A DNA stretch of 64,000 nucleotides from assembly GCF_001708405.1 (NCBI RefSeq), contig NZ_CP012418.1, forward strand, positions 1,702,501 to 1,766,500, written 5' to 3'. The notes beneath the pieces were generated by a model that was not told where the DNA came from, ran no database searches, and worked only from the letters and a program-made list of their open reading frames with translations. Positions within the stretch are counted from its first letter, which is position 1; each line of letters starts with the position of its first letter. Shown piece by piece: positions 19,402 to 31,087 of this stretch. The position numbers were made by a program, and so were the translations under genes. This stretch comes from Kangiella sediminilitoris. Lineage in GTDB: Bacteria; Pseudomonadota; Gammaproteobacteria; Enterobacterales; Kangiellaceae.

Positions 19402-20499
19402 CTAATCCTTAGCCTTCTTCACTTTGTTCTTATTATTGGCTCGCCCATGAGCATGCAGTAATCGGAAACCAAATAAAGCCATCACCAGGTATATCGGTAT
19501 AAAACCCAACCATCCGGGAATCTTTTCGGCCTCAACCCACTTACGAAAAATAACGATTAAAACGATGTAGCCTATATAGACCATGAGAGCAGGTAGCATC
19601 TTCGCAAACTTGCCTTCTCGTGGCTTGACCCGACTCAGCGGAACAGCCAGCAGCAGTAGAAAAGGCACCGACAATGGAACAGCTAATCTCCAATGGAACT
19701 CAGCCCAGCTGGCACCGTCTCCGGTTTCCAATAACTTCATGGTTGGCGTAGCTGAGATTTTACGCCGAGATACTATAGAACGCTCGGCTTCAAGACGAGC
19801 ATAATAATTCTCGAATTCAGTTATTTTTCTGACGTTCTTATTGGCGTCGAGTTCGTAAACATAACCATCATTCAACTGCAGGAAATTTTTATCCATCGTT
19901 TCATCGTAATAACGCTGAGCCGACTTCGCGGAAATGATTCTAGTATAAGGACTGGCTTCGGATGGTAGCTCAGCTAGAAAAAAGTTACCTAAATGGCTTG
20001 GGTTATCTGAAGAATCTGCATAAACAACTCCCTCTCCTTCCTGAAAGATTTGGAAACGTCCAGGTTCTAACATACTGAGCTCCAGCTTACTGGCGTGCTC
20101 ATCCCGGATTTGGTAAGTCGTCTCGTTCGCAACGGGTGCTAACCATAGAGAAACTGCACCACCGCTTAAAGCAATAATCACTGAAATGGGTAATAATAAA
20201 CTAATCAGCTTCTTTTCACTGACACCGACTGAGCGTAAAACCGCCATCTCACTATCAACGTACAGACGGCTGAAGGCTAATAAACATCCTAGAAAAAAAG
20301 CTAATGGCAGTAAAAAACCCATTAGTACCGGTGAGTAAAGTAGCACCATCTGCCAGACCATAGTGCCGGAAATATCACCCGACGCAGCCTGTGCCAGATA
20401 CTTCACGATACGTTGACTGATAAAAATAGCGAACAACACACCCAGTATTGCTAAGGTGCTGCTAAATACTTCTCGGTTTAAATAACGACTTAAAATCAA
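19402..20499 (-). CDS. lptF: LPS export ABC transporter permease LptF
   Basis: This is the first gene of the lptF-lptG pair, 365 residues. Helices at about 10-30, 45-80 and 100-120 precede the periplasmic jellyroll, and three helices close the C-terminus. YLNREVFSSTLAILGVLFAI and YVDSEMAVLRSVGVSEKKL are YjgP hallmarks. The start must be TTG at 20497-20499, because a stop lies two codons upstream and the N-terminus then fits the family. Divergent from pepA, as in E. coli. Confidence 0.95.
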   Translation of the reverse strand: MILSRYLNREVFSSTLAILGVLFAIFISQRIVKYLAQAASGDISGTMVWQMVLLYSPVLMGFLLPLAFFLGCLLAFSRLYVDSEMAVLRSVGVSEKKLISLLLPISVIIALSGGAVSLWLAPVANETTYQIRDEHASKLELSMLEPGRFQIFQEGEGVVYADSSDNPSHLGNFFLAELPSEASPYTRIISAKSAQRYYDETMDKNFLQLNDGYVYELDANKNVRKITEFENYYARLEAERSIVSRRKISATPTMKLLETGDGASWAEFHWRLAVPLSVPFLLLLAVPLSRVKPREGKFAKMLPALMVYIGYIVLIVIFRKWVEAEKIPGWLGFIPIYLVMALFGFRLLHAHGRANNKNKVKKAKD

Positions 20500-28316: not shown

Positions 28317-30875
28317 TTAGATACAAACCTCTTCGGCGGGCTTACGCATATTATATTGTGTTGACATAACATGGCCATAAGCACCTGCATTTTCGATTAA
28401 AACCAGGTCCCCTTCCAGTGTCTCCGGGAAAGGAATTTCTACACCTAATTTATCTGTACTCTCACAAATGGGGCCTACCACAGTCGCAAGGTGTTCTTTT
28501 GTCTGCTCTAACCGACTTAAGTTAACTATATTATGATAAGAGCCGTATAGCGCAGGACGCATCAGGGAGTTCATACCCGTGCTTAAGCCAACATAGTAGT
28601 AGTTTTGCTTTTGCTTAACCTGGGTAACCTTAGATACTAATACGCCCGTATTTGCCGATATATAACGGCCAGGTTCAATCCAAAGTTCATACTGAGGGTA
28701 TTCAGACTTTACTTTTTGCAAGCTTTTATCAATTTGACTCATAGTTAATTCTGACTGTTGAGCTCGCTCCTTAATACCGAAACCACCACCAAGATTTAAA
28801 TATTTTACTCCGGAGAATAAAGCAGCGGTTTCGGCTAAAAGTCGAGCATGTTCAGCCCAGTGTTCATTGGTTAAGATACCGCTACCGGCATGAGCATGCA
28901 GGCCAACAACATTGATATCATACTCTTCAATGACCGGTTGCAAATCCTCAAGCTCATAAATGGGGATACCGAATTTAGAAGTTGCACCAGCAGTCCTGAC
29001 GTTTTCATGATGTCCTTTTCCAATATTTGGATCAACGCGTAAGAAGACATCTTTACCACGGAAAATCTCAGGCCATTGCCTGATTGGATAAGTACTATCT
29101 AAAGTTAACCGTATGCCTTTTTCTAAAATGGCTTCGTATTCATGGCGGGCCGCAAAATTTGGCGTGAAGAATATTCTTGATTTATCAATGCTTGGGAATA
29201 GGTTCAGAATATGATCAACTTCACCTGACGATACGGTTTCAAAACCAATGTCGCTTTCGTAAGCCACTTTCAACACATCAGGATTATTGTTTGATTTAAC
29301 AGCAAAGAATATTCTTTCAATAGCACTGATAGACTGTAAGTTTTGAATGTTCTGCTTAACCGAATCAAGGTGGTATATATAGGCACTATCCCGGTCTTTC
29401 AGACACTGAGTAATCTCTTGCTGCTTATCTTGCCACCATCTACTGCCTGTATCTGTCTGCTCAACCTGCTTCAGCTCTTTGGCGGTTGGCCCCAGAATTT
29501 CACTATTGGGGTTATTGGTAATCAGTAACTCATGAAGAGCAGTAATCACTTTATTGGAATGCTCATCATCAATGACAAAGGTTAAATTCAAGTCAGAGGC
29601 GGCCTGCGATAATAAATAGACTTTATATGTCTCAAAAATCGAAAAGGCTGGAGCAATTTTATGTAATATCGCACGCACATTTTTCCCCACAATAGAAACT
29701 GCAGAGCAGTCATGCATGATATTAACACGGCACATTTTAGATAAGTCTTTAGCCAAGTTTTTAATCTGCTTTTCGGAAACTACCTGAGTCAAACTGTCTA
29801 GACTGACAGTAATATTTGTTTCTGAAGTGGATACCAAATCAACAGAGACCTGGTGCTGCTTAAAGATAGAAAAGATATCCGCTAAAAATCCTGCCTGTTG
29901 CCACATTCCCTGACTTTCCATGGATATTAAGGTGATATGCTCCTTAGCTGTAATGGCTTTGACCATTCCCCACCTGTTCTCCACGTCATTAATGATAGTT
30001 CCTTCGATATCAGGATCAATCGTCGAGCGAATATAGACTGGAATTTTAGTTGCCTGGGCTGGTCTTATTGCTCTCGGATGAAGAACTTTTGCTCCTGCAG
30101 AAGCCATTTCCTGAGCTTCATCATAATTAAGCTCCTTTAGAAGTCGCGCATTATTAACCTGATTCGGATTAGCTGTGAATATCCCAGGAACATCAGTCCA
30201 AATTTCTAGGCGCTCAGCTTCCAGCTTTGCCGCAAAGTAGGCAGCAGAGGTATCCGAACCTCCTCGCCCCAGGAGAACCGTTTCGTCTTCGCTGGTGCTG
30301 GCAATAAAGCCTTGCGTAATTACAACTGATGACTCTTCTACGGTCCTGATTAAGCTTCCGTCTGGAGAATAGTCACAATTAGCGCACAGATAGTCGACAT
30401 CATAACTTTCGTTCGCTTTCAAGAAGTCTCTTGCATCTAATCTATTAACCGATTCATCTAGCTGAGTTTGCAGGTAAGCCTGGCCGATTCTTGTTGACCA
30501 CAGCTCTCCTTGTGACATTATGAGTGCACGCACACGATCACTCACTTCACCTAACAAGTGGATGCCATCCAGAAGGCGTTTTAAATAGGCGTACTGCTGA
30601 TCAAGCAAAGTCTCCGGCAAGCCCATTTCAACCAGCAACTCTTGATGTAATGTAATGAGCTGCTGGTAGGATGGACGATAATCCCCTCCGTCAGCCAGGC
30701 CGATCAAAGACTCTAGTCTGTTGGAAACCGTACTGACTGCTGAGTGAACAACAAAAACCCTTATCCCTTTAGCACGTTTTCGTTTGATGATAGCCGCTAT
30801 AGTATTCCAGTTATCACGACTGGAAACACTGGTACCACCAAACTTAAGCACATGCCAAGAATTACTGTTGCTCAT
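28317..30875 (-). CDS. lysAC: Bifunctional aspartate kinase / diaminopimelate decarboxylase (LysC-LysA fusion)
   Basis: One 852-residue polypeptide carries the first and last enzymes of lysine synthesis. Residues 1-300 are aspartate kinase (KFGGTSV at 11-17, GRGGSDTSAAYFA, GAKVLHPRA). Residues 312-450 hold the ACT domains that bind lysine for feedback inhibition. Residues 470-852 are a PLP-dependent decarboxylase with K527 in FFAVKSNNN as Schiff-base lysine, HAGSG, LGGGFG and EPGRYI. Similar fusions are known in Xanthomonas and relatives. The ATG has GAGGA seven bases upstream. An attenuator with a lysine-rich leader peptide precedes it. Confidence 0.95.
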   Translation of the reverse strand: MSNSNSWHVLKFGGTSVSSRDNWNTIAAIIKRKRAKGIRVFVVHSAVSTVSNRLESLIGLADGGDYRPSYQQLITLHQELLVEMGLPETLLDQQYAYLKRLLDGIHLLGEVSDRVRALIMSQGELWSTRIGQAYLQTQLDESVNRLDARDFLKANESYDVDYLCANCDYSPDGSLIRTVEESSVVITQGFIASTSEDETVLLGRGGSDTSAAYFAAKLEAERLEIWTDVPGIFTANPNQVNNARLLKELNYDEAQEMASAGAKVLHPRAIRPAQATKIPVYIRSTIDPDIEGTIINDVENRWGMVKAITAKEHITLISMESQGMWQQAGFLADIFSIFKQHQVSVDLVSTSETNITVSLDSLTQVVSEKQIKNLAKDLSKMCRVNIMHDCSAVSIVGKNVRAILHKIAPAFSIFETYKVYLLSQAASDLNLTFVIDDEHSNKVITALHELLITNNPNSEILGPTAKELKQVEQTDTGSRWWQDKQQEITQCLKDRDSAYIYHLDSVKQNIQNLQSISAIERIFFAVKSNNNPDVLKVAYESDIGFETVSSGEVDHILNLFPSIDKSRIFFTPNFAARHEYEAILEKGIRLTLDSTYPIRQWPEIFRGKDVFLRVDPNIGKGHHENVRTAGATSKFGIPIYELEDLQPVIEEYDINVVGLHAHAGSGILTNEHWAEHARLLAETAALFSGVKYLNLGGGFGIKERAQQSELTMSQIDKSLQKVKSEYPQYELWIEPGRYISANTGVLVSKVTQVKQKQNYYYVGLSTGMNSLMRPALYGSYHNIVNLSRLEQTKEHLATVVGPICESTDKLGVEIPFPETLEGDLVLIENAGAYGHVMSTQYNMRKPAEEVCI

Positions 30876-30919: not shown

Positions 30920-30954
30920 AAAAAAACCCGCAGAGGATTTTCCTGTGCGGGTTT
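30920..30954 (-). terminator. Attenuator terminator in the lysC-lysA leader
   Basis: On the minus strand, AAACCCGCACAGGA (30941-30954) pairs with TCCTCTGCGGGTTT (30924-30937) with one C-C mismatch and a 3-base loop, followed by seven T. It lies 45 bases before the lysC-lysA start and 23 bases after the leader-peptide stop, so it must be overcome to express the gene. Confidence 0.92.
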
Positions 30955-30977
30955 AATAAAAGCGTATTACTCGTTTT

Positions 30978-31052
30978 CTACCCACAGCAGTACAGGACAC
31001 GTTTTTTTAGTGCCTTTTTGTTGTGTTTTTTAACGATTAATACTGTATTCAT
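30978..31052 (-). CDS. Lysine-rich leader peptide of the lysC-lysA attenuator
   Basis: A 24-codon frame starts at ATG 31050-31052 and ends at TAG 30978-30980. It encodes MNTVLIV followed by KK, HN, KK, AL, KK and then RVLYCCG: six lysines in ten residues, in three pairs. Codons 19-20 (TCCTGT region, 30992-30997) are complementary to ACAGGA in the 5' arm of the terminator, giving an antiterminator. Ribosome stalling at Lys codons when charged tRNA-Lys is low would free this segment and allow readthrough. No Shine-Dalgarno is seen; the predicted mRNA start is at or one base before the ATG. Peptide itself is likely only a sensor. Confidence 0.82.
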   Translation of the reverse strand: MNTVLIVKKHNKKALKKRVLYCCG

Positions 31053-31059
31053 GAGTTTG

Positions 31060-31087
31060 AATATAAGTTAAAACTAAAAATTGTCAA
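31060..31087 (-). promoter_or_regulatory. Sigma70 promoter of the lysine leader
   Basis: Minus-strand consensus TTGACA (31082-31087), 16-base spacer, TATATT (31060-31065). It lies between the tadA stop (31099) and the leader peptide, with A/T-rich DNA upstream. The calculated start is 31052-31053, at the leader-peptide AUG. Confidence 0.82.

Follow-up and report, generated by a model that had tools for sequence, protein, structure and literature searches.

The his, thr, leu, ilv, phe and trp attenuators of Proteobacteria are built on a common plan: a small frame with codons for the end product, a protector helix, an antiterminator set against a terminator and, next in line, a biosynthetic gene. 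The choice between terminator and antiterminator is made in time. Lysine is absent from the usual list of leader-peptide amino acids, and in Gammaproteobacteria its control at the RNA level is ascribed to a riboswitch. Two papers attribute lysine control to this L-box riboswitch (PMC1262725, PMC2659441). The L-box (RF00168) stands before lysC and responds to lysine, controlling the enzyme step that the leader described here would control; unlike a leader peptide, it binds lysine itself. The nearest precedent is SEP5 of Sinorhizobium meliloti, a small frame that contains six Thr codons and three Lys codons and has been suggested to be an aspartate-family leader peptide (PMC10117765). It differs from our leader in mixing Thr and Lys, in preceding an aspartate dehydrogenase gene and in having a role that is suggested only. 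Attenuator transcripts that start at the AUG of the leader frame are described for S. meliloti trpL (PMC7298713) and for mycobacterial polycysteine frames (PMC9031893). Those cases sense different amino acids and come from different classes or phyla, and the comparable start in Kangiella is deduced from promoter spacing.

The leader reported here, from marine bacteria of the genus Kangiella, shares the plan of the known attenuators, would share their timing and differs from them in its codon, which is Lys. It is the known attenuation mechanism with a new amino acid, its response to lysine being predicted, and it very probably acts by ribosome-mediated transcription attenuation tuned to lysine supply. 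No lysine attenuator was found in the open-licence papers searched; the original prediction, made from the DNA letters, called such attenuators little described.

Organization of the lysC-lysA locus

The window, the whole 64,000-nucleotide stretch that was analysed, comes from the 2.5-Mb, single-contig genome of Kangiella sediminilitoris and carries on its minus strand, in this order, a promoter, a 24-codon lysine-rich frame, an intrinsic terminator, an apparent Shine-Dalgarno sequence and a lysC-lysA fusion gene. All window features below lie on that strand. Lysine synthesis opens with aspartate kinase and closes with diaminopimelate decarboxylase. Both activities belong to the putatively regulated gene (28317..30875), which encodes a bifunctional protein of 852 amino acids (NF006515, 1216.9 bits against a cut-off of 802) and has the sequence GAGGAAG, recognized by eye, as its apparent Shine-Dalgarno (30887-30881). 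The promoter TTGACA-16-TATATT (31060..31087; TTGACA 31087-31082, TATATT 31065-31060) is of the sigma-70 type and matches 11 of 12 consensus positions. By itself it is no evidence, since a scan of a 1001-base stretch found one promoter-like site where 2.2 are expected by chance. The leader frame (30978..31052) encodes MNTVLIVKKHNKKALKKRVLYCCG in 24 codons followed by TAG, with six Lys within ten residues arranged as three Lys-Lys pairs. These putative regulatory pairs (31002..31031) are codons 8-9 (31031-31026), 12-13 (31019-31014) and 16-17 (31007-31002). The promoter, the 24-codon frame with its three pairs, a strong terminator with seven T (confirmed by both scan and fold) and the downstream fusion gene had all been proposed in the original prediction, and each was found as described; the leaderless geometry and the outer helix P0, set out below, are additions to that anatomy.

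Only 7 nt separate the end of TATATT from the leader ATG. Among the 18 leaders of the genus with a readable 5' end, TTGAC(A/T) with a spacing of 16-17 nt is present in all, although the -10 boxes of L019 and L020 are poor (AAGTAT), and the gap from -10 box to ATG is 6-8 nt in 17; the exception is L017, with 33 nt. These 17 have no leader Shine-Dalgarno, and no leader exceeds three of six matches to AGGAGG. Because the ATG follows the -10 box so closely and lacks a Shine-Dalgarno, the leader mRNA is probably leaderless, with a transcript start at or beside the AUG as judged from promoter spacing. By eye, the first trp leader of the same genome has the identical -10/ATG spacing, so that leaderless starts may be a habit of the genus.

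Conservation of the leader in Kangiella

The fusion gene was searched for, at E 1e-100, in 61 genomes: 20 of Kangiella (our own included), 17 others of the family and 24 others of the order. It is present in 27, namely 19 of the 20 Kangiella, 7 of the 17 and 1 of the 24. All 19 Kangiella fusion genes are preceded by a leader frame and a terminator (in L015 a contig edge removes the 5' end of the leader). At 12 named loci, 11 from Kangiella and one from a 'Kangiellaceae bacterium', the fusion proteins are 62-86% identical. A covariance model recovers all 19 leaders at E 3.7e-15 or better, as expected of the sequences from which it was built. The twentieth Kangiella, G017, has no match to this model at E 1e-6 and also lacks the fusion gene. 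In this genome, which is 99% complete, the search gave nothing beyond an aspartate kinase that stands alone and a distantly LysA-like decarboxylase (L073, L074), and for that reason G017 may be auxotrophic for lysine.

Of 114 aligned cells (six codons in 19 sequences), 104 have kept Lys, with exchange between AAA and AAG; the six codons, in order, are Lys in 17, 16, 18, 19, 19 and 15 of the 19 sequences. The original prediction had proposed aligning related leaders for conserved Lys-Lys codons, and frame, Lys codons and terminator are indeed kept before every Kangiella fusion gene, with partial exceptions in L021, which has three scattered Lys and no pair, and L005, in which the first pair is gone. 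A terminator kept where frame and Lys codons are lost was not observed, and the comparison supports the reading given in the original prediction. Smaller departures are the loss of the second Lys of the first pair in L019 and L020 and of the last Lys of the third pair in L018-L021. A Cys-Gly end is found in 16 of the 19 leaders, and all 16 use GGG for this Gly, compared with 7 of the 51 Gly codons in the fusion gene; this bias points to selection on the RNA. Codons 15-17 (CTA AAA AAA) contain a run of seven A (window 31008-31002) that is a possible site of ribosome or polymerase slippage; seven A also occur in L005, L010 and L011, and six in nine further leaders.

Such a frame is rarely met by chance. 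The window contains 1072 six-frame ORFs of 12-40 amino acids, two of which have at least six Lys in ten residues, and of these two only the MNTVLIVKKHNKKALKKRVLYCCG frame is followed by a hairpin and T-run. Among 29,542 comparable ORFs in 20 order-1 random windows, one is Lys-rich and none is followed by a hairpin and T-run. The upstream neighbour, tadA (NF008113, 31566-31099), runs in the same direction and stops 46 nt short of the leader's ATG, so the hairpin might be thought a mere terminator of tadA and the frame a chance ORF. We regard this as extremely improbable, given the chance estimate just stated, a consensus promoter between tadA and the leader in all 18 readable cases, and helices within the frame that coevolve (see below). 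Moreover, the sequence upstream of L019, L020 and L022 is by eye unlike the end of tadA, and leader and terminator are still there.

Structure of the leader RNA

The leader folds with an energy of -39.7 kcal/mol, against -24.75 +/- 3.11 for 200 shuffles. The 5' arm of the outer helix P0, GUAUUAAUCGUU, covers codons 4-7 (31032..31043), and its 3' arm, AACGAGUAAUAC, lies directly past the leader stop (30964..30975). The helix P1 (1:2) pairs GGCAC of codons 13-15 (31010..31014) with GUGUC of codons 18-19 (30996..31000), and the last Lys-Lys pair sits within its loop. Segment 2, the 5' part of the antiterminator (30980..30997), is made up of UCCUGU and UGUGGGU, with which the leader ORF closes. 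Segment 3, AAACCCGCACAGGA (30941..30954), was located by scan, fold and pairing test and serves both as the 5' arm of the terminator and as the 3' part of the antiterminator. Segment 4 (30920..30937), found by scan and fold, is the 3' arm of the terminator, UCCUCUGCGGG, with seven U (T-run 30926-30920). The scan places the terminator stem at 30948-30916, and the fold gives it nine outer and four inner pairs.

P1 can pair in all 19 leaders, with two-sided changes at four of its five base pairs. Its arms pair better with their own partners than with swapped ones (mean -8.2 against -5.0 kcal/mol), and none of 10,000 permutations does as well. The same holds for P0 (-7.0 against -4.2 kcal/mol; 0 of 10,000), and with 12 or 14 representatives each helix again gives 0 of 20,000. 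P0 is clear in 14 of 18 leaders; in L009, L018 and L022 the own partner is no better than swapped ones, in L017 the helix is weak, and on alignment A1 just 70.6% of its cells are paired. Taken row by row, the own partner comes first in only 3 of 14 representatives for P0 and 6 of 14 for P1, as expected among relatives but not decisive singly. Over the whole structure 93.1% of cells are paired, compared with 86.6 +/- 0.9% in shuffled and 30-55% in slid alignments, kinship making the shuffles optimistic; the number of further pair types is not above that of shuffles (104 of 500 as high). At the level of sequence comparison, then, P0 and P1 coevolve.

The variation of the helices also bears on another kind of sensor. 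In an arrest peptide the nascent chain itself stalls the ribosome, as in SpeFL-type sensing, and here a Lys-rich chain might do so, perhaps on binding lysine or a precursor. A core KKALKKR common to 12 of the 19 leaders could be read in this way. However, the residues encoded by the P1 arms vary in step with the base pairs (Ala-Leu, Val-Leu, Thr-Leu, Val-Ser, Met-Ser), L005, L009 and L011 tolerate 4 or 8 extra codons inserted upstream of the final two Lys pairs, and the peptides of L019-L022 are alike in little except Lys and the Cys-Gly end. An arrest peptide is very unlikely on these grounds, and attenuation by a ribosome that reads the Lys codons is the reading we retain.

A terminator lies between frame and fusion gene in all 19 leaders, with 99.5% of cells paired, and is uninformative on covariation because it hardly varies. 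The pairing of the last leader codons with its 5' arm is likewise possible in all 19, at -11.0 to -18.9 kcal/mol, so that an antiterminator is available, as had been foreseen. The complementarity of TCCTGT to the terminator 5' arm, also part of the original prediction, is upheld, although the motif spans codons 19-21 and not 19-20. In L021 both arms of the antiterminator have changed jointly and the pairing is kept (own -16.0, swapped mean -11.8 kcal/mol). Covariation of the antiterminator apart from L021 is weak: swap tests gave 358 of 10,000, and 229 and 146 of 20,000, since the terminator arm is almost invariant. The antiterminator was left out of the pair counts on A1, where segment 2 is misplaced in six rows. 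The compensatory changes that the original prediction had proposed to look for in terminator and antiterminator appear in the antiterminator of L021 and are otherwise weak, and it is the leader helices P0 and P1 that vary compensatorily.

Proposed model of attenuation

The nascent RNA of the 19 leaders was folded with a ribosome at each Lys codon, at the stop codon, or absent. When the ribosome sits on a Lys codon, the probability that segments 2 and 3 pair is at least 0.78 for every Lys codon modelled, with two exceptions, both at early codons (L007 K2, 0.02; L009 K9, 0.63). In the stop state segment 2 is masked by construction, and its pairing with segment 3 is therefore zero. Without a ribosome this pairing is at most 0.15 in 12 of the 19 leaders and 0.31-0.53 in five, and the antiterminator is still favoured in L008 (0.89) and L018 (0.74); the protector role is therefore not uniform. 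After segment 4 has been made, equilibrium favours the terminator in all stalled states except L008 K12, so the switch would have to be kinetic.

We propose that RNA polymerase starts at or beside the leader AUG and that a ribosome initiates on this near-terminal AUG. With ample Lys-tRNA the ribosome would reach the leader stop and cover segment 2; segments 3 and 4 would then form the terminator, and transcription would stop ahead of lysC-lysA. With scarce Lys-tRNA the ribosome would stall at one of the Lys-Lys pairs and open P0, P1 or both. Segment 2, set free, would engage segment 3 while segment 4 is still to be transcribed, and the polymerase would read into lysC-lysA. If the leader is not translated, segment 2 would tend to stay bound by P0 and P1, leaving termination as the default.

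Riboswitches and other attenuators

A structured RNA before a lysine gene is also what the lysine riboswitch RF00168 presents, and an RNA aptamer that senses lysine directly, with the small frame incidental, would account for the structure. The searches and the anatomy speak against it: Rfam has a single match in the window, to a tRNA, and RF00168 is found in none of the 37 genomes of the family, our own included (a few are incomplete, down to 55%). The riboswitch is present in 13 of the 24 other genomes of the order, and of 14 control genomes 4 were positive, E. coli and B. subtilis among them. In addition, P0 and P1 are short, the loop of P1 consists of Lys codons, and the frame and its Lys codons are conserved. 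We give a riboswitch-like aptamer next to no credence and return to the lysine attenuator.

Elsewhere in the genome, no Lys leader was seen by eye upstream of the aspartate kinase gene that stands alone or of the genes for ThrA-like and LysA-like proteins. A search of the genome with an ilvB model gave no match, and no Leu leader was recognized by eye upstream of a leuA match.

Attenuators for other amino acids were met in the genomes. Ten weaker matches to the covariance model, within and outside the genus, were inspected; three are trp leaders and one an ilv leader, none is a Lys leader, and the remainder comprise one Lys-rich repeat in a long ORF (G017) and ordinary terminators or ORF ends. 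Two tandem trp attenuators, each with its own terminator, precede a DAHP synthase gene (L063, L064; gene family tested for G005 only), at about 1517220-1517550 of G000:C1 on the minus strand and about 629000-629320 of G005:C2. Their leaders are MKKFYVKNIWWWHVT and then MSVTNLNTVAKFTWWWIH, the second in G005 being MTIISLAKTSSQHQWWWIC; the first has leaderless spacing, and what looks like a ribosome-binding site precedes the second. L068 (G036:C108, about 19414-19542), from a different genus of this family, has a leader MNCNFNVNIIIVVVLIRALRGCCLR and a terminator before a gene that by eye resembles an acetolactate synthase gene, and is probably an ordinary ilv attenuator.

Candidate lysine leaders outside Kangiella

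Outside Kangiella the covariance model, at E 1e-6 and with stricter filters, matched none of the 41 other genomes. Eight of the fusion genes in the 61 genomes are from outside the genus; the upstream region of L028 is cut off, and none of the seven assessable ones has a hairpin and T-run within 330 nt upstream. Frames with 3-4 Lys in ten residues occur at L023, L025, L026 and L030, which are among these seven and have no terminator.

A further 368 genomes of the class contain 13 more fusion genes, and a Lys-containing leader with a terminator was found at L080 alone; at L081 a frame with four Lys in ten lies far upstream and the terminator is absent. L080 and two relatives, from another gammaproteobacterial genus, have similar Lys leaders and terminators in three of three genomes, with five (L080), three (L090) and six (L091) Lys. 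The leader of L090 lies farther upstream, beyond an inverted repeat, and by eye this long repeat, GGAACCTCTGCTGGGCC...GGCCCAGCAGAGGTTCC, is placed between terminator and fusion gene. All three have a GCCGG beyond the leader stop that is able to base-pair with the terminator arm. In this genus the fold-state model gives mixed results (0.05 to 0.99 in the Lys states and 0.20 to 0.87 in the free state), so these leaders, which by eye are unlike that of Kangiella, stay a candidate for a second lysine attenuator of a second origin, a weaker case than Kangiella. A search at the level of the order, over 19 genomes, gave no additional fusion gene.

On a wider reading, which we offer as possible though rather doubtful, the Kangiella leader would be the first lysine-specific attenuator, carried on a leaderless transcript and gating both promoter choice and lysine supply. 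Since only RNA from its own promoter would have a ribosome-accessible leader, read-through from tadA would fall into the default terminator. On the same reading lysine attenuation would have arisen at least twice, because all three genomes of the second genus have, before the same fusion gene, a terminator and a leader with 3-6 Lys that looks different.

The Kangiella leader is short and strongly conserved. With it, the Gammaproteobacteria would join the groups in which leaderless attenuators occur. Kangiella apparently uses a leader peptide instead of a riboswitch, which would show that the two devices are interchangeable for one gene.
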